A DNA stretch of 29,046 bases from a virus. The notes beneath the pieces are model-generated. The model ran no database searches and was not told the origin of the DNA. It saw nothing but the letters and a program-made list of their open reading frames with translations. The stretch lies in IMG/VR virus record IMGVR_UViG_3300022866_000033, positions 1-29,046 of that record; one strand, given 5' to 3'. Shown in pieces: positions 524 through 22,160 of the stretch. The position numbers were made by a program, and so were the translations under genes. Every line of letters starts with the position of its first letter. Position 1 is the stretch's first letter.

Positions 524-987
524 TCTATTTCTAACCATGTGTGATCGCCCATATATTTTACCTGTGCTTGATATTCATACCAATCAGGTGGCCCACTAGA
601 CCAATCATTAGGTCCAGTTATAGCCAACACCATTTTTTCCTTACGAGTGTTCCACACCAACCAATATACATTGCCCATTACTACTTGAAACTGATATTCA
701 GCAGCATGTACTGCATCAGTAATATCTAATCTACGTTTAATCTGTTCTGCTTGTTTTTCTAATACAGTAACAAGTTCCATAATACGATCATACTCTTGCT
801 GGGCATACATCCTAGCATGATTAATCATTAAGTCTTTTTGTTTAGTAACAGGAACTAGATCAAAGTTAGGACCACCCGCTTCTGTTGGATACGGAGTTAC
901 ATTTCTATTAAAAAATGGAATAAGTGTTCCGCCAACATTAGCATCAAAACTATTACGACCTTTTACTAAGTTAGACTTCTTAGTCAC
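520..987 (-). CDS. DUF2452-like conserved protein
   Basis: 155-residue protein of unknown function. It has the features I associate with the DUF2452 family: an N-terminal PYPTEAGGPNFDLVP stretch, a central helix rich in Gln/Glu (about residues 60-90, probable coiled coil) and a C-terminal half with GNVYWLVW, an aspartate/tryptophan-containing GPNDW segment and a closing DHTWLE. The family occurs in bacteria and in T4-like phages and has no assigned function. It overlaps the gp44 gene upstream and the dCMP deaminase gene downstream by four bases each (ATGA), so it is translated as part of the replication/nucleotide operon. In T4 the gene after gp44 is the small clamp-loader subunit gp62; this protein does not look like gp62. 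Family assignment is from memory of the motif pattern. Confidence 0.8.
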   Translation of the reverse strand: MTKKSNLVKGRNSFDANVGGTLIPFFNRNVTPYPTEAGGPNFDLVPVTKQKDLMINHARMYAQQEYDRIMELVTVLEKQAEQIKRRLDITDAVHAAEYQFQVVMGNVYWLVWNTRKEKMVLAITGPNDWSSGPPDWYEYQAQVKYMGDHTWLEIE

Positions 988-1901
988 CCTAGTCTTGCCA
1001 ATTTAACTAGAGTAGCTGCTAAGTTAATCTCGGAGTCAATAACTAATGTATGATCTACTAGTCCCTGCTTAATAATGATAATAGCACTGTCTTGATTCTT
1101 CTCATCACCAAAGACTTCCAAGTTATCATATAACCAGCGATAGACTTCTTCCATCTCTTCAGCACGAATCTTGCCACATAGGAACTTACGTGCTTCTGTA
1201 ATTTTGCCTGCTTTAAACATGCCTACCATCTCAAACTTCCAGTCAGATTCACCGCCATCTGCTTTGTTAGGCGATACCAATGTACCTTCAGTTGAATTTT
1301 GTTGTACTAACTGAATACACTTGCGTAAGTCTGGGTATGCAACTTTTACATACAAGTCTAATGTGTCAAGATCAAAATCAATATTTTCTTCTACAAGGAT
1401 AGTAGCAACACGAGCAGTATACTCTATCATGTCAGTACGTTCTACGTGAAAACCTTGACACCGACTGTGCAGTGCTGGAATAATACGATTAGGATAGTTA
1501 CAAGTTAGAATGAACCGTGAAGTACTGTGATACTCTTCCATAACACCACGTAACGCTGCTTGCGCATTAGGACTTAGATAATCAGCCTCATCCAGCAATA
1601 CAACTTTAAACGGACCAAACGGAATCATTTGTACAAAGTTTGTGATCTTATCACGAACATCATCAACTGAGTTAGTACGTGACGCATTAATTTCTAGTAG
1701 ATCAAAATCTTCAATGCCAATCTCGTTGATAAGAATCTTAGCTAATGTAGTCTTGCCAATACCAGCAGCGCCACTTAGCAACAGGTGAGGAATACTTTTA
1801 TCTTTAATCCAAGTATTAATCTGATTGCGTTGGTGTCCATCACGGAATACATAACCGTCTACTGTCTTAGGTCTCCACTTTTCTACCCATAGTTCTTTCA
1901 T
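984..1901 (-). CDS. 44: Sliding-clamp loader large subunit (T4 gp44-like AAA+ ATPase)
   Basis: AAA+ ATPase of the RFC/clamp-loader family, expected to load the phage sliding clamp onto primer-template DNA for the replisome. Visible motifs: N-terminal LWVEKWRPKTVDGYV (the RFC-type start), Walker A GAAGIGKT at residues 44-51, Walker B VVLLDEAD at about 100-107, sensor 1 around LTCNYPN (132-137), and the SRC motif in HSRCQ (145-149) that supplies the arginine finger to the neighbouring subunit. At 305 residues it is close to T4 gp44. The C-terminal third is helical, as in the collar domain. Its start overlaps the preceding small gene by four bases and its stop overlaps the DUF2452 gene by four. 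No gp62 partner is recognisable next to it. Confidence 0.95.
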   Translation of the reverse strand: MKELWVEKWRPKTVDGYVFRDGHQRNQINTWIKDKSIPHLLLSGAAGIGKTTLAKILINEIGIEDFDLLEINASRTNSVDDVRDKITNFVQMIPFGPFKVVLLDEADYLSPNAQAALRGVMEEYHSTSRFILTCNYPNRIIPALHSRCQGFHVERTDMIEYTARVATILVEENIDFDLDTLDLYVKVAYPDLRKCIQLVQQNSTEGTLVSPNKADGGESDWKFEMVGMFKAGKITEARKFLCGKIRAEEMEEVYRWLYDNLEVFGDEKNQDSAIIIIKQGLVDHTLVIDSEINLAATLVKLARLG

Positions 1902-3271: not shown

Positions 3272-3636
3272 TATTTTACGAACGCTGTTAGGTCAGGAGC
3301 AATCCATCCTAGTGGCTTAAGGACTTTACCATCTTCACGCTTACGAACCTTGCCAGTTTCTTTATCAATTTTAGCAAAGTTAGTTTTCATAACTTCTTTC
3401 CACGCACCTTCAGCATCAAAGCCAGCACTGTGAATAGCACCAATTGTAACAACTAAAATATCAATTAGCGCATCAAGAATCTCTACTCGATCTTTAGCAA
3501 TGATTGCTTGATTTAATTCTTCTGCTTCTTCTTCAATTAGTTTCAAATACAAATTAAATTGATCAGTATTGCCTCTGCCCACTGTTTGGTCGCAGGCTTT
3601 CATAAATGTTTCTTGGTCTCTAAATGGATTCATCAT
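3271..3636 (-). CDS. MazG-like nucleotide pyrophosphohydrolase
   Basis: All-alpha NTP pyrophosphohydrolase of the MazG/phosphoribosyl-ATP pyrophosphatase superfamily, expected to hydrolyse a nucleoside triphosphate or related nucleotide to the monophosphate and pyrophosphate. The metal-binding signature is visible: acidic cluster EEEAEEL at residues 35-41 and EILDALIDILV at 52-62, supplying the Glu and Asp ligands (E36/E39/E40, E52, D55, D59). The C-terminal tail with GKVLKPLGW is like that of short phage members of the family. At 121 residues it is a single-domain form. The start overlaps the upstream dehydrogenase gene by four bases (ATGA), which favours the first of the two consecutive Met codons. 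The true substrate (dNTPs, or alarmone-like nucleotides as discussed for cyanophage MazG) is not determined by the sequence. Confidence 0.88.
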   Translation of the reverse strand: MMNPFRDQETFMKACDQTVGRGNTDQFNLYLKLIEEEAEELNQAIIAKDRVEILDALIDILVVTIGAIHSAGFDAEGAWKEVMKTNFAKIDKETGKVRKREDGKVLKPLGWIAPDLTAFVK

Positions 3637-4430
3637 AATCTCCGGTGTTTCTTGTTAATTGTTTCTATTCTTTCTAGTAGCTCAAGGTCTACGCTTTTGT
3701 CTATTGCTTCTGCTATTATAGCAGCTACATCCTTGGGAAAGCAACCGCCTCCCCACCCATATTGACCATCCGGTCCAGGAACATCCATATGCGTCTTACC
3801 AATCCGAGCTTCGTAAGTGGTTAGTGTTTTAAGATCGTGCCAATCAACTCCTTCTGCATCGGCTAGCAGTTTAAAGTCATTCATAAATGTCACTTTGGTT
3901 GCTAGGTAACTGTTCATCATGTATTTGTATAGTGATGCAGTTTTAATATCGGTGATAATAAACTTGTCATGTGAAAGTGGAACTCCTTCTCGAATTATAT
4001 CTCGAGCTTTTTCACACCACTCGTGCCTGCCGCCCAGTACAAAATATGCAGCATTAGAGTAGTCTGCAACATTGTTAGCCGCAGTTAGAAATTCTGGGCA
4101 ATAGACTATGTTAGGATATTCTTCTTGTAATCGAGCATATACACTAGGAGGTGCAGTAGTTTTGCAGATAATTGGTATTTGTTTGTTGATGTTTGCAAAC
4201 AAAAGTTCTTTAAGAGTCTGTTCTAGAATACTTGTATCACACCGGCCGTCTTCTAGTGTAGAATCTACAGCTGGACTAGGTACACATACAAAGATACCAT
4301 CGCAGTCTGTAAACTGATCTAATGATGCAGAGTCTTTTAGTTTAGGATCTCTAGTAACGGGATCGCTATGTCGATGTGCCCAGCCAATAGCTTGACCTAC
4401 ATATCCAAAACCGATGATACCAACACTCAT
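3633..4430 (-). CDS. Short UDP-glucose/GDP-mannose dehydrogenase family protein
   Basis: NAD-dependent nucleotide-sugar dehydrogenase that would oxidise a UDP- or GDP-sugar to its uronic acid. N-terminal Rossmann motif GFGYVG at residues 7-12; CVPSP at 49-53; CPEFL at 111-115 with the conserved Glu113; YKYMMNSY at 168-175 with Lys169 and Asn173 spaced as in known UGDHs; and GGGCFPKD at 227-234 with the catalytic Cys230 and Asp234. All active-site residues are therefore present. The protein ends at 265 residues, soon after the central helical domain, so the C-terminal sugar-nucleotide binding domain of normal members of 400 or more residues is missing. First gene of the operon under the promoter at 4458-4486. 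Enzyme family secure, substrate unknown. Confidence 0.88.
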   Translation of the reverse strand: MSVGIIGFGYVGQAIGWAHRHSDPVTRDPKLKDSASLDQFTDCDGIFVCVPSPAVDSTLEDGRCDTSILEQTLKELLFANINKQIPIICKTTAPPSVYARLQEEYPNIVYCPEFLTAANNVADYSNAAYFVLGGRHEWCEKARDIIREGVPLSHDKFIITDIKTASLYKYMMNSYLATKVTFMNDFKLLADAEGVDWHDLKTLTTYEARIGKTHMDVPGPDGQYGWGGGCFPKDVAAIIAEAIDKSVDLELLERIETINKKHRRL

Positions 4431-4457: not shown

Positions 4458-4486
4458 ATTATACGCTTCTTTTCTAGTTCTGTCAA
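4458..4486 (-). promoter_or_regulatory. Consensus sigma70-type promoter
   Basis: On the minus strand TTGACA (4481-4486) and TATAAT (4458-4463) are separated by exactly 17 bases: a perfect bacterial housekeeping promoter. Transcription would begin near 4451, about 20 bases ahead of the dehydrogenase start, and would serve the overlapping gene chain down to the dCMP deaminase. It is one of seven similarly built sites in the window. Confidence 0.88.
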
Positions 4487-4594: not shown

Positions 4595-5017
4595 TTACCC
4601 GATCTTAGATAAGTTTCCAGGCATAAAGTCTTCAGGATTAATATTCATGCTGCTACCATGACTGTATTCTTGCCCGATATAAAAGTCACTTGGTTTTTCA
4701 TCAGCAACAGCAATGACCGATGCTACTTCAACCTTCTGGAATTCTTTTTCGCCTTCACCGTCATCAATCTTAATCTTACGAGTCCATCGACCGTGCTCGA
4801 TTAATACCCATTGGCCTACCTTGACATCGAGTTCACATGCATTACCAACTTTGTAGACTTCTGCCCAACGAGGCTTAACACCGTGTGCTTTACCGTCATC
4901 ACTGCCAACAATGATGCCGCCACTAGACTTTTGTTCACCCATATCCATATTGATTACTAGGATATCTTGCGCCAATGCGCGAACTTTAACTTTCTTAGCA
5001 CTAAATGCAAATGTCAT
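4595..5017 (-). CDS. GroES/gp31-like co-chaperonin
   Basis: 140-residue protein resembling the GroES fold. KSSGGIIVGSDD at residues 30-41 matches the mobile loop that docks on GroEL (hydrophobic IIV tripeptide at 35-37). It is followed by AEVYKVG (52-58) and VGQWVLIEHGRWTR (67-80), the beta-barrel segment that in GroES contains the 'G..V...' turn. In T4 the analogous gp31 replaces host GroES so that GroEL can fold the major capsid protein; a similar role is inferred. The C-terminal 35 residues extend beyond a standard GroES core. Last gene of the short cluster starting with the DnaE-like fragment, followed by a hairpin. It could also be called simply a GroES homologue; orthology with gp31 is not shown. 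Confidence 0.82.
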   Translation of the reverse strand: MTFAFSAKKVKVRALAQDILVINMDMGEQKSSGGIIVGSDDGKAHGVKPRWAEVYKVGNACELDVKVGQWVLIEHGRWTRKIKIDDGEGEKEFQKVEVASVIAVADEKPSDFYIGQEYSHGSSMNINPEDFMPGNLSKIG

Positions 5018-5019
5018 AG

Positions 5020-5247
5020 TTAACCTTTTTTACGAGTTAGGACATCTTCTTGAGCTGCCCTTGGATTAGCTTTGTAGTAATCTGCAAGGATCTGTTCACG
5101 TGTGCGAACAATTTTACCACCTTCACCTAGTTCGTCACCTCTGGCATTCATTCTTGCATTACCCACAGCCGGTTCAGTTTCGTGCTTCAACTGCAACTTT
5201 TCCATGTCAATTTCTTTTCCTCTAACGCTGGTATATAATTTACCCAT
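5020..5247 (-). CDS. Small conserved phage protein (75 aa)
   Basis: Unknown function. Starts MGKLYTSVRGKEIDMEKL, with a Gly/Asn-rich centre (VGNARMNARGDELGEGGKIV) and a basic C-terminus. The overall look resembles a small protein I recall from T4-like cyanophages, which also has no assigned role. A good ribosome binding site (GGAG, six bases before the ATG) supports the start. It overlaps the DnaE-like gene by eight bases and ends two bases before the GroES-like gene. No membrane segment, cysteine motif or enzyme signature. Confidence 0.75.
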   Translation of the reverse strand: MGKLYTSVRGKEIDMEKLQLKHETEPAVGNARMNARGDELGEGGKIVRTREQILADYYKANPRAAQEDVLTRKKG

Positions 5248-5710
5248 TTTGATCTCCTTTAAAAAATTCTTCTATTGGTAGCTTGTATTTAATACTGTCT
5301 ACCTTATGTACCCCTATTAAGTGGAGCACGTAACTTGCAACACTCGATCCACGACCTACGCCCCAAACTACATTATTGGCCCTGAGTGTATCAACAATAT
5401 ACTTCATAACATACAGTACATCATGCATACCATTTTTAATAAACAGATCTAATTCCAAACTAACTCGATCTCTCTGCTCGTCAGTCTCGCAACTGCCATA
5501 AAGAAATTCTACCAAATTAGGGTAGTAATCATCAGGAATAAACCAATGTGTTGGATCTACTGTAGTTGGTGGGATTGGATAATCTAAATACTCCCGTGAT
5601 ACTTGATTTAGATACTTGCTGATGTCGTTGGTAGTTTGACAGTGTTCCAGAATATCTGGACCATGCCGTAGTATACCTTCTATTAGTTGTTCTTCTGTAT
5701 TAGTCCACAT
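5240..5710 (-). CDS. DnaE (DNA polymerase III alpha) palm-like fragment
   Basis: 156-residue protein whose C-terminal half resembles the start of the palm domain of family C DNA polymerases. From about residue 90 it has a helix like DnaE 'YFLIV..FI..A' (DVLYVMKYIVDTLR), then VVWGVGRGSSVASYVLHLIGV (114-134) matching DnaE 'VGPGRGS.AGSLVAY.LGI', then VDSIKYKLPIEEFF, matching 'DPL.Y.LLFERF'. It stops right there, before the DnaE catalytic 'PDFDxDF' aspartates, so it cannot be an active polymerase. The N-terminal 80 residues are acidic and aromatic and not recognised. Since T4-like phages use a family B polymerase, this is a separately evolved protein; nucleotide or template binding is conceivable. 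The homology call rests on visual motif matching. Confidence 0.75.
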   Translation of the reverse strand: MWTNTEEQLIEGILRHGPDILEHCQTTNDISKYLNQVSREYLDYPIPPTTVDPTHWFIPDDYYPNLVEFLYGSCETDEQRDRVSLELDLFIKNGMHDVLYVMKYIVDTLRANNVVWGVGRGSSVASYVLHLIGVHKVDSIKYKLPIEEFFKGDQNG

Positions 5711-5930
5711 TAATCAATTGATCCAGATCGTTATCTAATTGTCCTTTAGACCTAGAGAGATAACGTTTAGTCATCTCTTCTTTGTATATTGTAACAAAAA
5801 TTGCGAGCTGTGTCAAGAGGGCACGATTGCCTAAATGTGCTGCTGTAAAGTATTTTTTGTTCAGCTCAAGCAATTTGGCCTCGACCTCATTGTCTTTGAG
5901 CTGACTTAGATCACCTTCAAATGGATGCAT
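5700..5930 (-). CDS. Small helical conserved protein (76 aa)
   Basis: Highly helical, charged protein (starts MHPFEGDLSQLKDNEVEAKL) with no enzyme motif; similar small proteins occur in T4-like cyanophages to my recollection. Start shares one base with the stop of the structural gene upstream (TAATG), so it is probably co-translated with the late structural genes. Its stop overlaps the DnaE-like gene by 11 bases, and an internal promoter lies inside its coding sequence (5788-5816). A virion or assembly role is plausible from position only. Confidence 0.72.
   Translation of the reverse strand: MHPFEGDLSQLKDNEVEAKLLELNKKYFTAAHLGNRALLTQLAIFVTIYKEEMTKRYLSRSKGQLDNDLDQLINVD
5788..5816 (-). promoter_or_regulatory. 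Near-consensus sigma70-type promoter inside a gene
   Basis: Minus strand TTGACA (5811-5816) and TACAAT (5788-5793), spaced by 17 bases. It lies within the 5700-5930 coding region and would start transcription about 70 bases before the DnaE-like gene, separating the early-looking genes 4595-5710 from the late structural block upstream. Confidence 0.75.
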
Positions 5931-9858: not shown

Positions 9859-11331
9859 TTATACCAATGCTGCTATTGCTGTTTTAAATTCGGTAAAATC
9901 TGCACTTGCTGCTGCAATAGACTTTAATTGAGCTAAGTTAATAACTCTGCTGCCGTTAACTATTAATTCGTTTTCAATGTCCACATCACTGCTAAAAATT
10001 GTCTTAGGTGTTACAGTAATTGCTGAGCTGTCTGCACTATCAATTAATGTAGTAAAGATATTTCCAGTCACAGCTCCTGTAACATTTCCACTGAATGTGC
10101 CGGCAGTTAAAATGTTTGTAGAAGGATCATATGTTAAACTAGTATCAGTTCTAACATTTTTGTTACCAGTTGCAGTGTCAACAAAAGCAAGATAGTGGAC
10201 GGCTGCTGTTGAATCTGTAGCAATTAATGTAACTGTTGTAGCAGTAGTTGCGGTATCTGCATTGCCAATTACATTGCCGGTTACATTGCCAATTACATTG
10301 CCAGTTACATTGCCAAATAAGTCACCGTAGAATACACCATCAACCGCATCAACCATAATACTACTATTATCTGCAAATACTGACCCTGTTAAATCAAACA
10401 CCGGATCAATTGTAAATGTTACGGTGTCTGTGCCAGCATTTTGACTAAGTGTTATACCTTGACCTGTTAAAAAGTTTAATACACCGTTAACACTGTTAGC
10501 TTCAAGCGGGCTTCCGCTTAGTCCATTAGTAGTCACATATCTAAAAGCATTACCTGCAGGAGCAGCGTTTGTAATTGTAACAATGCCTGTAGCTGCATCA
10601 GTTGACACAATTAATGCTGCTGATCCAGGTTCAACACTTAACACTCCAGTATTGGTTAATGCAACACCTCCGGTTGACGTACTTACATTGATACCTACAC
10701 CTTGAGTTCTGCCACTTGGCAATGCTGTGGTATTTGTAAGACTAGTAACACCTGTGTTTGTAAAAGTTACGTTTCCTGTCGCACTGCTTACGCTAATACC
10801 TGTGCCTGCCGTAGCTGCAACAACTCCATTGTTATTGATTGTAATAGTCTCTGATGCAGAATCAACACCGAGTGTTATAGCTGTTCCAGAGTTTAGCCCA
10901 AAAGAATTGCTACCATCAATAGCAATGATAGAAAAATTATTATCAACCTGTATTTCTTTAAAGAACGTTCTGTCTGGATCTTTAATTAGCAATCCATCTA
11001 CTGTAGTTCCTGCCGGTAAATCTACGGTATATCCTATCCCTTTAATATGAGCAGTTCCTAACCATATGCCATTGATCGAATCTATATCGCTGTACTCGCC
11101 AAGATGGATAGATTTCCAATGATGAGTAGCATCTCCTATATTATATAAATTATCAGTGGCCGGACTTATATTAGTATCTAACGATTCAAATGCAAGCGGA
11201 GCAAGACCAGAGCCGTCTCCAATAGTAGCAACAAGGATATCAAAATTTTCATTAATCTTTGTAAATGCTTCTTGGACACTGCTCCACAATAGTGGAGGAC
11301 TTCCTGGGTTTATATTATCGTTATATGCCAT
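9859..11331 (-). CDS. Tail-fibre-like structural protein (490 aa)
   Basis: Beta-rich repetitive protein, probably a fibre. The N-terminus has a divergent copy of the shared module (SSVQEAFTKINENFDILVATIG, about residues 17-38). The central part repeats a pattern like 'ATGI-V-NTGV-SL-' and 'GISVSSATGNVTFTNTGV', typical of trimeric fibre shafts. Residues about 330-355 form a short GNVTGNVIG repeat encoded by 12-base tandem repeats. A later AGTFSGNVTGAVTG segment repeats that theme. The start lies 1 base into the stop of the 2345-residue gene, with a GGGAG ribosome binding site. No enzymatic motif was found. Virion location is inferred from composition and context. Confidence 0.8.
   Translation of the reverse strand: MAYNDNINPGSPPLLWSSVQEAFTKINENFDILVATIGDGSGLAPLAFESLDTNISPATDNLYNIGDATHHWKSIHLGEYSDIDSINGIWLGTAHIKGIGYTVDLPAGTTVDGLLIKDPDRTFFKEIQVDNNFSIIAIDGSNSFGLNSGTAITLGVDSASETITINNNGVVAATAGTGISVSSATGNVTFTNTGVTSLTNTTALPSGRTQGVGINVSTSTGGVALTNTGVLSVEPGSAALIVSTDAATGIVTITNAAPAGNAFRYVTTNGLSGSPLEANSVNGVLNFLTGQGITLSQNAGTDTVTFTIDPVFDLTGSVFADNSSIMVDAVDGVFYGDLFGNVTGNVIGNVTGNVIGNADTATTATTVTLIATDSTAAVHYLAFVDTATGNKNVRTDTSLTYDPSTNILTAGTFSGNVTGAVTGNIFTTLIDSADSSAITVTPKTIFSSDVDIENELIVNGSRVINLAQLKSIAAASADFTEFKTAIAALV
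10261..10316. repeat. 12-base tandem repeat in a fibre gene
   Basis: Four full units and a partial fifth of ATTGCCRRTTAC (plus strand), starting at 10261, 10273, 10285, 10297 and 10309. On the coding (minus) strand they encode alternating GNVT and GNVI tetrapeptides. Because the unit is a multiple of three, gain or loss of copies would keep the frame. Confidence 0.85.
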
Positions 11332-14300
11332 TATGTTCTCCCTACTGCAATTTCAATAGTTCCAATATGATCACTATCGTACTCAACAAGTGCCTTGCCT
11401 ACTACTGTACCAACTTTAACATCGGAACCGGCAGCAACAGCAACGCCTGATATTCTAGAAGTCACTAACATGTCTCCCTTTTTAATTTTACCAACTACTC
11501 GACATGGCACACGACCTTGTAGAGCCACTAAGTTTTTAAATCCTGGACAAGCATCATACATAACAAACGCAGCAGTATCAGACACAACACCAGCAACTCT
11601 TGGATCGCCCTGCTTATCGGTTATAGTAACTTCCTTGTCACCACCAAACACTAATACAGTACCAACTTCATAGTCTTTATCACCTTCGTAGAATTCGGCC
11701 AAGTCGGCGGAGTAGGTTGATTGTAATCTAGATTCATTTGGGCTAGTTCCAGTTAATGTCCATCGTCCGGTAATAGTGCCGCTATCAGTATTACTGCCTG
11801 TAGTAATAGCTGTAGTTTGTATGCTTGAAACAGTAATCGGAGCAAAACTAACACCGTTCTGTGTCTTGAAGATATGTGAATCATTCCAGTAGTTAGTTGT
11901 TTTATCTGTAGCAAGAGAACCATTAGATATTAGTATACCACCTCCACTGTCGTATCCGTAGTATCTTAAGTACCCTCCAGTTGCAGTTGTAGCACCATCT
12001 ATGGATAAGTTAGTATCGACTTTAACTTGAGAAATATCAATGTTACGTCCGCCAAAGTCGCCATTACTATCTCTAGCAATTAGTTTACTTGCCTCAACAC
12101 TTGCACTAGATCCAGCAGCAGCTTCGATCATTACATAGTCGCCGTCTGAGCTAGAGCTTGAACCGTTTGTTCTACGTAAAATACCAGTACCGCTATATTG
12201 ATTTTTCTTAACCGCAAGGCCTAAATCAATTACGTTTGCAAATGTTACTGCGCTTACATTAGCGGTATTTAACCCAGAATTGCCTAATACAGTCTTTGTA
12301 GCAATCTGTGCAATCTTTGTAATAACAAGTCCGTTATCCTTTACAGTTAGCCAACCATCAGTGGCAGTAAATTGCGCACTGTCAAAACTCGCTAGACCCA
12401 AATCAGCTTGAACAATACCTGTGGCATTAACACGAGCACTGGCAGCAGTCATTGCTAGTTTACTTTGCACAATTGCCGCATCTGATTTAACATCAGAGTT
12501 AATAATTGTATCGCTGTTAATCTGAATGTTTAAATCGCTACTGGTTCTAGTAGCAGTAACATCACCTGTGATAGTCACATTAATTGCTGCATCTCCAGAT
12601 CCCGTAAACGATAATAGCTGTCCGGTTGTGGGTGTAGTAATTACTGTATTTTGAAAATTAGCAAAAGTTAAACTTTGTAAGTTAACAGCATCTTGGGGAT
12701 TTACAGGATCTATAAGATTAGTAATCTTATTATTGTTGAGATTCATCGGGCCTTTCATACCTAACTGTCCGTCTAGAGACATAAAGCCTCCGGAAACTGT
12801 TGGGATTAATTGACTCGCCGTTACTGTTCCGCCATCATGTGTTATACCTAATCTTCGTTCGATATAGATACGTGCTGCATTTTCTGTTGGCACACTGTCA
12901 GTAGCATTGTCTGTAAAGCCACTGTCTGTTGAAAATTCACTTACTGGAACGCCTCGTTTAAAACCAATACCATCTAAGTTACTCAATGCAATTGACGCAG
13001 CAAATGTTACAGTACCTGTACCTTGATCGACTCGGAAGAATGGTCCAACACTGAAATTACCAAATTGGTCAGTGGTCACATAAAAGCAACGTCCAACATC
13101 TCGTTCATCAGTTTCTTGACTTGCGTTAACCGCGTTTACTGATGCTCCATAAATTTCGCTAGGATAGTTAGTATCTGCATAGGATCCTGTACCAATTTCT
13201 AACAAATCATGACTTGTTACACGAGTCAACGAAATACGAATAGTTAAACTACCAATAGCTCCGTTAGTTCTAATAGCCACTGCAGACTTAATTGTGTACG
13301 AATTTTGATAAGCAACTAGACTGTCGACTAACGGACGACTTAGAACAAGTCTTGCATACGATTTATTGGTTACTGCTTCACTTTGATAATTGTCAATAAT
13401 ATATTCCTCTCCGAGGAACACAAATTTACTACCTGCTACTCTGCTTCTTTCCTGAGCAGCCACCGGAATTACAGCAAATGTTAAGTTGCCAACTTGCCCT
13501 GTTACTTTCCCGACAGTCTGTGTTCCTGATTGAGTCCCAGAAGTGTCTTGTGCATCACCTCCTGGAGAGAAACTAATCTGGAATTGGTCAGTAGTTAACC
13601 CGGCACTTATTACGTGAAAATTGTTATTAGAAGTTACTCCGGTAGGCAGCACTCCGGTACTTTCAAACTTAATAACATCGCCTGCAACGAACCCGTGAGC
13701 AACTAGACTAATTACACTAGGAGCTGCTATAGAAATAGTACAGGTTCTACCAGTTGGGTAATCGTCTGTAAAGTCACCAGGTTGGTATATTGTTAAGTCG
13801 TTGTAATTATAATTCTCTCTGGTAGTAGTTCTAGTCAACCCATAAAGTTCATAACCAAATGTTCCACTACCCAATGCAGTTACGGCTACTGGAGTCCCAT
13901 TTTTTAACGTTGCTACCTTAAATTCAGTTTCAGTTAGACCGTCTGTAAGAACCCAATAAAATTGATTGTCATTTGTCAACGGCGTAGGCAATACTCCTGT
14001 GTAAGTTAATCCTACAGGAGTTCCAGCAGTTGTGGTTATAGCTGAACCGCCAGGGGAGGCTGATAGTGTGAATGTTGTGGTACCATTAGTTGCAATGATA
14101 TAGTAGACCACTTCATTAACGAACCCTGCAATACTACCAGTACCACTGTTAAACCCGTTAATAGTAATGCTGTTGCCTACGACTAGTGTAGTTGCACTAC
14201 AACTAAACTGTCCAGCAGTGCCAGTAATTATTACATTGCGTAGTACTGGGTTAGATAATTGTAAGGTATAATTTTCTACTAGCTTGTGAGACTTAGCAGC

Positions 14301-17300
14301 TTGGATGTATAAGCTAGACCCGTCACCTAGTGTAGGACTAGCCCCGTCAACAGTTAGCGATAGATAGAATTGATTATATTCCGGAACGCCAATAACATAA
14401 TATGTAGTGTCAGCAAGAAGACCGTTTGATGAACTTGTAGGAATAACTACGTCGCCTACTCTTAATTTATGATTACCACTAGTGGTACACAAATTTGTAG
14501 CGATATCGGTAATTGTTAGTAATATTTTAAATACAGCTGGATCAGCAACAGTGACGCTTACATCATATGGCGCATTTGAATCTGCATACTGAGTAAACTG
14601 CAAAACTCGATAGACGTTATCTTCAGTCTCTCTTAGTTTTAAACCAGTTGATGGTCTAACAGCAACTTCAGCTAAATCTCCAGTAAGTAATATCTGTCCG
14701 TTGTTTCTAATGGTTAGTACTGTGTCATTCGGTACTTGTGCAAATAATCCACCAATGGTAACCCCACCACCACCGCCAATGTTTAGTCTAGCAACACCAG
14801 CCGGCAAGTCAGCGGTTGTTACATTGCTGACTGGGTATCTATAAATTATGCCGCCATGATCAATTTCTAATTCACTACTGCCTAACGGAGTATATTCATA
14901 TCCGTACACAAAGATGAATAAGCCATCTATTGTATTTGCATAAGTTGCTGATGGAAAATAACACTTAGCTCGTTGACTAAATTCTTCATAAACTGTAGTT
15001 GGTGTTGGAACTTCTAATGGATCCGCCCCTTCTGCAACTAGGGCATAATTACCATGGGCACTTGACCCACCAACACTTCGAATCTGTCCACCATTGATAG
15101 AATAGTATGAAATATGGCAGTAGTAGGTAAACATTGACACAGCTTCAATCAATCCGCCGTTTGTTGCCACTAGACCGTATCCTAAATCGTTAATTTGTGT
15201 AAAGTCATTTGACAGCATAGAACGGTTGCCAGGCATCAACAATTCATACTTACGTTGATAAGCAAATGTTCCAGTACCGCTTGATGTTGTAGCAACTTTT
15301 ACAATTGATCCAAACGTTGCAGTTATGTTAAAGGTGTTATTGGTTAGACCGTCGGCAACTACATAATATTCTTTGTCTGCAATAATACCTGCAGGCAACC
15401 CGCCACCTGCACTTACTGAAAATATAATAGTAGCACCTGGTTGAAGTCGGTGCTCAACAACAGTAATAACAGCCGGATCACCATTGCTAATAGTACATGT
15501 TTGGCCACCAGCAGCCCTAATAAATGGTGTAGTTTCATCTAATACAAATGTAGCAGTTGAGCCAGCTGTACTGTACACAAAGTCTCTAACATAGTTAATA
15601 CGGAATACACTATCATCTACCAAGAAGCTAGCTGGCAGTTTAGGTAAACGCTCAAGGCCGCTTACTGTTAGTCTGGTAAATGTAGCATCTGATGCATCGT
15701 GATCAAATTGCAAGTTACCGGTAAACCCGTCAACAAACTTGCCGCCTGCAAACACTTGTCTATTAGTTGATTGTGAAAAGCTGGCACACTCTTGAGCGTA
15801 CGGAGACTTAGCCTGAACTTGCCCTTCAGGGTCAAGCACCAACATAAAGCCACCGTGTCCCTGCGCAGTAATTGCCTGCCAGCGGCAAGCATCGTTTGCA
15901 AGGAAAACGTCCATCTGATTGTTTTCTTTAGGATAGTTTACACTTCCTGACCCATCCATTACATCTTTAATGGCTGTGATTAAATCAGTTATTACCGTAT
16001 CTGCATTAATTTCGGCAGCAAATGCTCTATCAATAGTTTGTGGATACAGTAATTGATAAGTTGTTGCAACTGCGGTATTAGTAATGACCTGTTGAATTAA
16101 CTCGTTTAGGTGATCTATTGATGCTAGTGTTTCTGATAGTTGAGTAGTAATAGCAATACGAGCACTAGCACTTTGATAATATTTTAAACCAGCCGATATG
16201 GTTCTATTGTAATCACCGTATTCTAAGTCAAAAGTTAGGGCATCAATAATTAACCCAATGTCTCGTTTGCACAGATTAACATCATATTCGAAGGCAGTTG
16301 TAAACGGAGCTACATTATTAGCTATTTGATTAGCTATCCATCCGCTTACTTCTTCTTGCATGAACGAGCGATTTAATTGTATCAATGCGCTAGCCGCAAT
16401 ATAGTCACCTGGATTATTAATCTTTGGATACACTGGCTGACTTGGATCTTGAAGATAATGATAACCGAATGGCGAGTCAACCGCAGTAGTTAATCCGTCA
16501 ATTACAAGATCTCTACGGAACTTTCGGAAGGCCCATGGACTTGAACTAGTTCCTATTCTTGGTCTAACAATACAACGACGAAATTCATTACCTACAATAG
16601 ATACATTTTGTGGAACCTTTAGAGGATAATTTTCTTCGTAAACTCCACTTTCGACTAGAATAGTGATTTGAATACTTTTAGTAACGTCGCCGTATGCAAC
16701 CGGTTCATCGATCTCAAACGCTCCTACCTTAATATCAACGTCAAATAATTCGTTACCTAAACTATCAAGTGAGCCGTCGTGTGCTAAAATTTGAGCCAAT
16801 GCTCCGCTATTTTCGCCACGTAAGAATAAGCCTTCGCGGATGTCTCGACCTCGAATTGCTTGCGGAGTATTAGTAGTGACATCACCAGTGAAGTCTGTTC
16901 GTTGACCGTCTGTGAAGATAGCAAATCGAGGAAGGTTAACTTCTAATGAGGGCAACGTAGTAAATCCAGAACCTTGATCTGTAATAGTAACACTAGAAAT
17001 AGTGCCACCACTAACCACAGCGGTACCAAATGCACCAGCACCACTACCTCCGGCAATTCGAACAGAAACTAAACTATACCCAGATCCCACATTTGTAATA
17101 CTAATACTATTAACTTTATACGTAATATTAAACGTTGCGCCGGCACCAATTGCACTAATTCCTGCTGGTGCAGCCGATGTACTAATAGTTGTTGCATTAC
17201 CAACTGCACCAGGCAACCCTGAATATACTCCAGTTGAAATAATCCTAAAAGTTGAAATAGCCCCGGGAGTAGTTAATGTGGATAACACTTCAATAGTCGC

Positions 17301-18368
17301 AGCAGCGCCGCCGACTGGAATAGCGCCTCCGGTAACTGTTAAAATATCTCCAACAAAGTAGTTGGTACCGACACTGTTAATTACTAACGTGTCCACACTC
17401 ATTCGGACTTCGCCTGCAAATCCTGAACCGGATTCGGGACTTGTTTCGATACTTGATAATGTACAAGTATTAACACCATTATCGTAGGTTAATAGTTTCT
17501 TGTATGGGCCAATCTCTAGCTTTGATTCTAATACTAACTCTTCAGCTCGGCGAAGTGCTGCTTCTAATGTTTTATAGGCATATGCTAATGCACGACCTTG
17601 TAGTGCTTTACTAACACCAACTCGAGCATCTTGCCCAGAGGTTGCAACATACAAGTTTGCCACGCTACCAAAAGATGAATTATCGACATATCGTTTTGTT
17701 GCAGCAACAAGACCGTTGTAGTTAACGTCGTCATCTGGTTCCGGATCTCGAGAAAGAATTAGCGGACCGCCCATACGTCCAAATGCAGAACTTACTAACC
17801 CTGTTGCTGGGTCGATAGCAGTTGCTCCGCCTAGTGAAATTTTGCCGTCAACATATCCTTTGTTAGCAGCTAATCTAACGGCTGTTGATGCAGACTCATT
17901 ATGATCTGCTGAAAGCTGCTCTCTAGCATCGATAACTTCAGCTTGAACACGCAGATCTGGCAGGTTGCCAATAGGGTGTATTTTACCGCCGAAGAATGCA
18001 TTTAGTGATCCTCCTAGCGCCGGAAACGTGTCTGATGAAATTGACGAGAACGCTGAGTTAAGAGTAATTTCATTTTCGTTGGTAGTATAGTCAATAGTAA
18101 TACCTGTTCCGCCTTTTAGAGACTTGAACGTGACTCCTGACTCGGTATTGTTAACTGTTACTAGTGGAGTAAGCCCAGTTTCTGGATCATTCTGTCCAAC
18201 ATACGAAACTGGAGAATCATCTAATCCAATAAAGGTTAGTTTTTCACCGAGTCCAAGTGAACTGTATAGTTCTCTAAAGTTGTCGTTTACTTTTCTAAAC
18301 GAGTCGCGAATACTATCGCCTGTGCCGTCGTTACCTACAACGCCTACGTCAATTTGTTTACGGGCCAT
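11331..18368 (-). CDS. Giant tail-fibre/appendage protein (2345 aa)
   Basis: The largest gene of the window and very likely a main host-recognition fibre. Order of parts: residues 1-40, the shared N-terminal module (NDGTGDSIRDSFRKVNDNF); about 240-285, YVATSGQDAR...AYAYKTLEAALRRAEE; 320-480, a Gly-rich insert; about 568-605, VESGVYEENYPLKVPQNVSI, the usual opening of a pectate-lyase-like beta-helix. In the middle there are four diverged repeats of 'TCTIS..AP.VI.L..H....G..I.F...G.LP.G......Y.V...L....F', typical of phage fibres. The last 130 residues (YSADLAEFYEGD, VALQGRVPC, KKGDMLVTS, IEIAVGRT) resemble the C-terminal, Peptidase_G2-like autoprocessing/trimerisation domains of phage appendages. 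A late box GCTAAATA is 31 bases upstream. Exact position in the virion is unknown. Confidence 0.85.
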   Translation of the reverse strand: MARKQIDVGVVGNDGTGDSIRDSFRKVNDNFRELYSSLGLGEKLTFIGLDDSPVSYVGQNDPETGLTPLVTVNNTESGVTFKSLKGGTGITIDYTTNENEITLNSAFSSISSDTFPALGGSLNAFFGGKIHPIGNLPDLRVQAEVIDAREQLSADHNESASTAVRLAANKGYVDGKISLGGATAIDPATGLVSSAFGRMGGPLILSRDPEPDDDVNYNGLVAATKRYVDNSSFGSVANLYVATSGQDARVGVSKALQGRALAYAYKTLEAALRRAEELVLESKLEIGPYKKLLTYDNGVNTCTLSSIETSPESGSGFAGEVRMSVDTLVINSVGTNYFVGDILTVTGGAIPVGGAAATIEVLSTLTTPGAISTFRIISTGVYSGLPGAVGNATTISTSAAPAGISAIGAGATFNITYKVNSISITNVGSGYSLVSVRIAGGSGAGAFGTAVVSGGTISSVTITDQGSGFTTLPSLEVNLPRFAIFTDGQRTDFTGDVTTNTPQAIRGRDIREGLFLRGENSGALAQILAHDGSLDSLGNELFDVDIKVGAFEIDEPVAYGDVTKSIQITILVESGVYEENYPLKVPQNVSIVGNEFRRCIVRPRIGTSSSPWAFRKFRRDLVIDGLTTAVDSPFGYHYLQDPSQPVYPKINNPGDYIAASALIQLNRSFMQEEVSGWIANQIANNVAPFTTAFEYDVNLCKRDIGLIIDALTFDLEYGDYNRTISAGLKYYQSASARIAITTQLSETLASIDHLNELIQQVITNTAVATTYQLLYPQTIDRAFAAEINADTVITDLITAIKDVMDGSGSVNYPKENNQMDVFLANDACRWQAITAQGHGGFMLVLDPEGQVQAKSPYAQECASFSQSTNRQVFAGGKFVDGFTGNLQFDHDASDATFTRLTVSGLERLPKLPASFLVDDSVFRINYVRDFVYSTAGSTATFVLDETTPFIRAAGGQTCTISNGDPAVITVVEHRLQPGATIIFSVSAGGGLPAGIIADKEYYVVADGLTNNTFNITATFGSIVKVATTSSGTGTFAYQRKYELLMPGNRSMLSNDFTQINDLGYGLVATNGGLIEAVSMFTYYCHISYYSINGGQIRSVGGSSAHGNYALVAEGADPLEVPTPTTVYEEFSQRAKCYFPSATYANTIDGLFIFVYGYEYTPLGSSELEIDHGGIIYRYPVSNVTTADLPAGVARLNIGGGGGVTIGGLFAQVPNDTVLTIRNNGQILLTGDLAEVAVRPSTGLKLRETEDNVYRVLQFTQYADSNAPYDVSVTVADPAVFKILLTITDIATNLCTTSGNHKLRVGDVVIPTSSSNGLLADTTYYVIGVPEYNQFYLSLTVDGASPTLGDGSSLYIQAAKSHKLVENYTLQLSNPVLRNVIITGTAGQFSCSATTLVVGNSITINGFNSGTGSIAGFVNEVVYYIIATNGTTTFTLSASPGGSAITTTAGTPVGLTYTGVLPTPLTNDNQFYWVLTDGLTETEFKVATLKNGTPVAVTALGSGTFGYELYGLTRTTTRENYNYNDLTIYQPGDFTDDYPTGRTCTISIAAPSVISLVAHGFVAGDVIKFESTGVLPTGVTSNNNFHVISAGLTTDQFQISFSPGGDAQDTSGTQSGTQTVGKVTGQVGNLTFAVIPVAAQERSRVAGSKFVFLGEEYIIDNYQSEAVTNKSYARLVLSRPLVDSLVAYQNSYTIKSAVAIRTNGAIGSLTIRISLTRVTSHDLLEIGTGSYADTNYPSEIYGASVNAVNASQETDERDVGRCFYVTTDQFGNFSVGPFFRVDQGTGTVTFAASIALSNLDGIGFKRGVPVSEFSTDSGFTDNATDSVPTENAARIYIERRLGITHDGGTVTASQLIPTVSGGFMSLDGQLGMKGPMNLNNNKITNLIDPVNPQDAVNLQSLTFANFQNTVITTPTTGQLLSFTGSGDAAINVTITGDVTATRTSSDLNIQINSDTIINSDVKSDAAIVQSKLAMTAASARVNATGIVQADLGLASFDSAQFTATDGWLTVKDNGLVITKIAQIATKTVLGNSGLNTANVSAVTFANVIDLGLAVKKNQYSGTGILRRTNGSSSSSDGDYVMIEAAAGSSASVEASKLIARDSNGDFGGRNIDISQVKVDTNLSIDGATTATGGYLRYYGYDSGGGILISNGSLATDKTTNYWNDSHIFKTQNGVSFAPITVSSIQTTAITTGSNTDSGTITGRWTLTGTSPNESRLQSTYSADLAEFYEGDKDYEVGTVLVFGGDKEVTITDKQGDPRVAGVVSDTAAFVMYDACPGFKNLVALQGRVPCRVVGKIKKGDMLVTSRISGVAVAAGSDVKVGTVVGKALVEYDSDHIGTIEIAVGRT

Positions 18369-21710: not shown

Positions 21711-22160
21711 TTAAGCCTCGTAAACTGCGCTGTTGGAACCATGTTCTGCGCACTCAACTCGTACACAATAACAACGATTATTAGTCTTTTCGCGTATCAG
21801 TGCGTCGGCAAAGTTGAATGCATGTTCTGCAAACTTCTCTGCACCTACACCATCAAAGATTCTAATCTCTACCAGATCTAATGCTTCTAGTTCTTTAAAT
21901 TTTTCTAAATGTGGATCTTGTTTATCCAATGCCAGTTTGTGATCAAAGTGATCTTCGAGCCATGCCTTAAGCGGTTTAAGTCCACCGAAGTCTACTGCCC
22001 AGTTCTTGTCATCTAATTTATCACATCCAAAGGTAAATGTAAACGCTAAACTGTAACCATGTAACAAATGACAGTGACTGTGATCTGCGTTAGGTTGACG
22101 GAATACCGCTGACAGCCCAATGTTGTGTCCGTAATGTTTTATTGAATAAAATTTTGCCAT
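21711..22160 (-). CDS. QueD/6-pyruvoyltetrahydropterin synthase-like protein
   Basis: 149-residue T-fold enzyme of the PTPS/QueD family, which convert 7,8-dihydroneopterin triphosphate to 6-carboxy- or 6-pyruvoyl-tetrahydropterin (queuosine/7-deazaguanine or pterin routes). Family landmarks: SHCHLLHGYSLAF (28-40) with the expected catalytic Cys30 and His34, VDFGGLKPL (56-64), FDHKLAL (72-78) with His74, VGAEKFAEHAF (105-115), and VRVECAEHGSN (133-143). Two of the usual three zinc-ligand His positions look replaced (Phe20 and Tyr36), so metal binding must differ. 7-deazaguanine DNA modification is known in phages, but no folE, queE or queC is visible here. It has a long leader of about 95 bases and an AAGGAGA site. 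Confidence 0.85.
   Translation of the reverse strand: MAKFYSIKHYGHNIGLSAVFRQPNADHSHCHLLHGYSLAFTFTFGCDKLDDKNWAVDFGGLKPLKAWLEDHFDHKLALDKQDPHLEKFKELEALDLVEIRIFDGVGAEKFAEHAFNFADALIREKTNNRCYCVRVECAEHGSNSAVYEA

Follow-up and report, generated by a model that had tools for sequence, protein, structure and literature searches.

A "split, phage-specific minimal DNA polymerase III alpha" has been proposed for the group 2.2 jumbo phages (Iyer et al. 2021, PMC7824862), and a Pol III alpha-like protein has been noted at the gene for its N-terminal half (N-half) in Atu_ph07 (PMC6102473) and, where it was called truncated, in CBB (PMC5259590). In our literature search, no split phage polymerase was found to have been tested experimentally. 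The gene described here lies on a 29,046-nucleotide viral sequence (IMG/VR record IMGVR_UViG_3300022866_000033), the whole of which was analysed and is referred to below as the window, and adds a member from a metagenomic clade to the split enzymes already described by Iyer et al. 2021. Added here are the exact junction between the two halves, a residue-by-residue correspondence with the E. coli active site, a count of their co-occurrence, the two conserved neighbourhoods in which they lie, and an extension to many metagenomic phages and to the phage Slicko01.

A protein of 156 aa is encoded, from an ATG start, by the minus-strand ORF at 5240-5710. Its residues 72-151 match positions 16-95 of the 260 in Pfam family PF07733 (E = 1.1e-12; 48.6 bits, the cut-off being 23.9 bits). 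The protein also matches phrog_11127 at 4.5e-37, with further matches to NCBIfam DnaE models and to solved DnaE chains in the PDB, and PF07733 is matched by all 56 aligned members of the N-half family. A preliminary description of this DNA had taken the protein for a fragment of the DnaE palm, naming a missing DnaE match or an unlike fold as what would count against it; the matches confirm a real family C (DnaE) palm fragment, and for an AlphaFold2 model of the N-half (mean pLDDT 77.6, ~86–96 over residues 61-110) the best Foldseek matches in the PDB are DnaE and PolC, with weak E-values (0.06 or worse) at a probability of 1.00. The two catalytic aspartates and the third aspartate are absent from the ORF, the chain ending before the PDxDxDF motif, and no Pfam match to a PHP, thumb, clamp-binding or OB domain is found in it, the ORF being too short for these. 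Residues G117, G119, R120, G121, S122, and S126 of its GS motif are invariant across 56 sequences, and the motif is predicted, by analogy with family C and Pol beta-fold enzymes, to bind the dNTP triphosphate.

Table 1. Features of the N-half locus in the window (positions counted from the first nucleotide of the window).
Feature	Position	Strand	Match or basis
Probable N-half of a split minimal family C DNA polymerase	5240..5710	-	phrog_11127; N-terminal part of PF07733
GS motif GVGRGSSVAS, residues 117-126	5333..5362	-	Equivalent of E. coli DnaE G-x-G-R-G-S364
Small upstream gene, 76 aa, conserved	5700..5930	-	Same family upstream in most relatives, including RaK2, GAP32, and PAC2
Small downstream gene, phrog_14844, conserved	5020..5247	-	phrog match and neighbourhood comparison
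GroES/gp31-like co-chaperonin (Cpn10), conserved neighbour	4595..5017	-	
gp44-type clamp loader (phrog_168)	984..1901	-	Neighbour of the N-half in relatives too
Putative sigma-70-like promoter TTGACA-N17-TACAAT	5788..5816	-	Consensus match; inside the upstream gene

The protein had also been described as stand-alone, a view that comparison with its relatives does not support, as a second gene encodes the missing aspartates in 10 of the 10 N-half-bearing phages searched whole. The DnaE finger model PF17657 was searched against ten complete phages and returned weak matches in ORFs of ~190–217 aa, with one further pair of matches in longer ORFs. The shorter ORFs, hereafter the C-half (phrog_11778), carry an xDxDxDF motif, the third aspartate within GxxKxDxL, an IRPxK finger stretch, and a K(S/P)HA motif, and the C-half profile finds a single such gene per genome in the ten complete phages (E-values of 1e-68 to 1e-100). 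The N-half and C-half genes lie 9 to 224 kb apart. The residues invariant over 46 C-half members (D6, D8, D10, K69-x-D71, R138, P139, K141, and H171) include the equivalents of E. coli D401/D403, D555 (the third aspartate), and the steric-gate residue H760, the last being retained within a shrunken finger. Between the last aspartate of the motif and the third aspartate, at the position of the thumb, lie 61 residues, compared with 150 in E. coli. The AlphaFold2 model of the C-half has a mean pLDDT of 88.3, with DnaE/PolC (Pol III alpha) as its best Foldseek matches in the PDB at a modest E-value of 0.003 and a probability of 1.00. The possibility that the small upstream ORF of 76 aa is a hidden piece of the C-half was rejected: its homologue in contig G077 matches the C-half profile over the finger region at 12.3 bits, and this match, which falls in a helical stretch without catalytic residues, was taken as chance.

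The preliminary description correctly placed the end of the chain ahead of the catalytic aspartates. Nearly all N-halves stop within a few residues past EF(F/L)(K/R), and the N-half family profile, aligned to E. coli DnaE, covers residues 319-393 and ends at N393, with the catalytic D401 eight residues further on. N393 and D401 belong to one loop of E. coli DnaE, where the end of the N-half and the start of the C-half meet, and many C-halves, including many of the marine members, begin with MPDVDIDF, the point at which the N-half stops. A frameshift or readthrough from the N-half into the downstream ORF was rejected: phrog_14844 forms a conserved family of its own in which catalytic motifs are absent, and in GAP32 and RaK2 it does not overlap the N-half gene. 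Marine ORFs of 564–576 aa that match the N-half profile were likewise rejected as fused N-halves and represent a separate single-chain family C polymerase, with a GS motif, LPDVDIDF, a third aspartate, and CRAHAVNLG; marine contigs L150, L172, L174, L176, L187, and L189 carry both a C-half and, ~5–6 kb downstream, one of these polymerases.

Among 50,697 phage records, the N-half is present in 62 and the C-half in 63, and the tallies of the two match among the organisms listed, save for one extra 109-kb Klebsiella record with the C-half. The records bearing the N-half are mostly jumbo phages, such as RaK2, GAP32, CBB, PA5oct-like phages, SCTP-2, Atu_ph07, and Phosso, with the split pair reaching a 141-kb phage (Slicko01) and many metagenomic phages. 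Relatives of the N-half in IMG/VR number 99 loci in one search and at least 580 in a larger one. Every tested IMG/VR contig with the N-half in its usual cluster and a PAC2-type uvsW also has the C-half, and among the contigs tested for uvsW, those with an N-half and no C-half are also without uvsW. Some relatives of the N-half come from MAG contigs assigned to bacteria or archaea (L463-L469, one contig being 335 kb), which are probably binned phage contigs.

Long contigs of the window's sister clades carry the C-half, and the window's own phage presumably does so as well. The C-half profile finds no match in the 29-kb window, nor was a C-half found for the close clade of the window in further viral scans or in searches of ~50 contigs; both the C-half and uvsW are absent from window-clade contigs of up to 134 kb, and a 216-kb contig of the close clade (G078) has PolB and the clamp loader with uvsX, uvsW, gp41, and the C-half all absent. 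These absences are uninformative because the contigs are fragments without the replication module (uvsX/uvsW/gp41). The main point against an obligate pair is the 202-kb contig G077, which has an N-half close to that of the window, the small upstream gene, a divergent uvsW, uvsX, gp41, and PolB, with no C-half detected and neither phrog_14844 nor GroES next to the N-half. The N-half of G077 sits outside the usual gene cluster, being found with the upstream gene alone in a T4-like contig (L357; G077:97656-98352), and the two genes are possibly a horizontally transferred cassette.

The N-half gene of the window is overlapped on both flanks, by the upstream gene and by phrog_14844, and the order upstream gene, N-half, phrog_14844, GroES-like gene, gp44 clamp loader is kept at 109 of the 116 loci with enough flanking sequence, some of which are not independent of one another. 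The C-half lies in a second neighbourhood, being surrounded by uvsX/uvsY/uvsW and primase genes; in RaK2 and PAC2 it is located between uvsW and the primase/helicase genes, and in RaK2 this module also holds a DnaQ-like exonuclease. No family B polymerase was found on the window, and one is present in all ten complete relatives and in contigs G001, G004, G005, and G078 of the close clade, consistent with the earlier view that the N-half gene does not encode the main polymerase of its phage. Of the promoter that the gene was said to possess, what stands is a plausible element kept in relatives (TTGACA-N17-TA(C/T)AAT), the spacing of which is fixed at 17 in nearly all relatives ending in EFF. 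The element remains putative, as it is a consensus match inside the upstream ORF where coding constraint adds to its conservation, and it is suggestive only that this predicted promoter (5816-5788, minus strand) may drive the N-half.

Several other features of these genomes were observed. A perfect 12/12 sigma-70 consensus (TTGACA-N17-TATAAT) is located at 4458-4486 on the minus strand of the window, just upstream of a UDP-glucose dehydrogenase-like gene (3633-4430). The window also encodes a QueD-like 6-pyruvoyl-tetrahydropterin synthase (21711-22160, minus strand), and PAC2 encodes a 7-carboxy-7-deazaguanine synthase; deazaguanine modification of the DNA is therefore possible. A tail-fibre-like protein of 2345 aa is encoded at 11331-18368 (minus strand), near which several proteins start with a similar "NDGxGDxxRxAFxKVNxNFxxL" repeat. 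In Pseudomonas phage PAC2 (204–207 kb), the family B polymerase is itself divided over two genes, which flank a Hef-like homing endonuclease (L444:11927-17153).

The ORF very probably encodes the nucleotide-binding N-terminal half of a two-gene, Pol III alpha-type (family C) enzyme consisting of palm and small fingers, and this is supported by homology, the break point, co-occurrence, the conserved catalytic residues, and purifying selection. The physical association of the halves, polymerase activity, and role that we infer would be as follows. The N-half would provide the helices ahead of the active site and the GS motif holding the triphosphate of the incoming dNTP. From the C-half (~190–215 aa, from a gene tens of kb away) would come the metal-binding aspartate pair of xDxDxDF and the third aspartate, together with a mini-finger bearing the steric-gate histidine, and the two proteins would associate to form a single active site. 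The split enzyme may then act as a helper of the family B polymerase during recombination-dependent replication or repair, a role suggested by the neighbourhoods of the two genes, with the clamp loader beside the N-half and UvsW, primase, and helicase beside the C-half. As the assembled enzyme would be without thumb, PHP, clamp-binding, and OB domains, processive polymerisation is doubtful, and the missing thumb leaves its function as a usual polymerase in doubt. Its retention across very different genomes of phages that use a family B polymerase suggests that it probably has a distinct job. If this is true, a family C polymerase of palm and mini-finger spread over two distant genes would offer a minimal model of the active site of the bacterial replicase, and the exact break point, partner family, and conserved residues make the split enzyme directly testable with two small proteins.

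The alternative that the gene is a degenerate remnant of a full-length DnaE, as its being much shorter than cellular DnaE might suggest, can scarcely be credited and is already contradicted by strong purifying selection, sharp conserved ends, fixed length, and wide distribution. Pairwise dN/dS within the N-half family is ~0.03–0.15 (the pair L097/L098 being left out of the estimate), and the gene is therefore not a relic, in agreement with the earlier reading of it as intact. The suggested recruitment of the fragment as a clamp- or DNA-binding factor or as a decoy finds no support, given the second gene that supplies the aspartates. An N-half acting alone, whether as a nucleotide- or DNA-binding factor or as a decoy interfering with host DNA polymerase III, would suit the N-terminal 70 residues, which have no counterpart in the Pfam match, the conserved promoter-like element that may drive the N-half, and the N-half and upstream gene of G077 with no detectable C-half in 202 kb. 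It is nonetheless improbable, as the N-half co-occurs near-perfectly with the C-half in sequenced phages, the break coincides exactly with the start of the C-half, and a decoy, which should diversify along with its host, would have no need for the GS motif of an active site to be invariant.

Alternatively, the split family C fold may serve as another kind of nucleotidyltransferase, such as a short-patch gap filler, a primer extender, or a template-independent transferase acting at recombination intermediates. It is a version of the favoured explanation, compatible with a split enzyme, and we regard it as a tentative but serious possibility: all catalytic residues and the steric-gate histidine are kept with most of the fingers and the thumb, PHP, and clamp-binding parts missing, the relatives own a family B replicase, and the C-half lies among uvsX/uvsY/uvsW and primase genes. 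In contrast, the finger motifs and steric gate suggest templated addition of dNTPs. It seems rather unlikely that the two halves make up a family C nucleotidyltransferase of two subunits and no thumb with its own role at recombination-dependent forks, rather than a small replicase, and that in some phages, as in G077, the N-half works without the C-half.

Compared with the split Pol III alpha of the jumbo phages (Iyer et al. 2021), the window N-half belongs to the same family (phrog_11127), with the same GS motif and the same end point, and its neighbours are identical in kind to those in RaK2, GAP32, PA5oct-like phages, and CBB, a family B polymerase also being present in relatives. Unlike the sequenced jumbo phages, the clade of the window is metagenomic, with ~30–54% identity over the aligned part, and its N-half ends in EFFK-x rather than EFL(K/R). 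The palm helices and GS motif are shared with cellular DnaE and PolC (PF07733, PF17657), as are, by way of the partner gene, PDxDxD, the third aspartate, and the KSH finger motif; however, the cellular enzymes are single chains of ~1,160 aa, whereas the split enzyme comprises two polypeptides of ~350 aa together and lacks the PHP, thumb, clamp-binding, and OB domains. The compact single-chain family C polymerases of marine phages (~565 aa; phrog_405 and phrog_11165 are related) also have a GS motif followed by LPDVDIDF, a third aspartate, and a finger histidine, and differ from the split enzyme in being a single polypeptide, in which the insert separating the motif from the third aspartate is longer.
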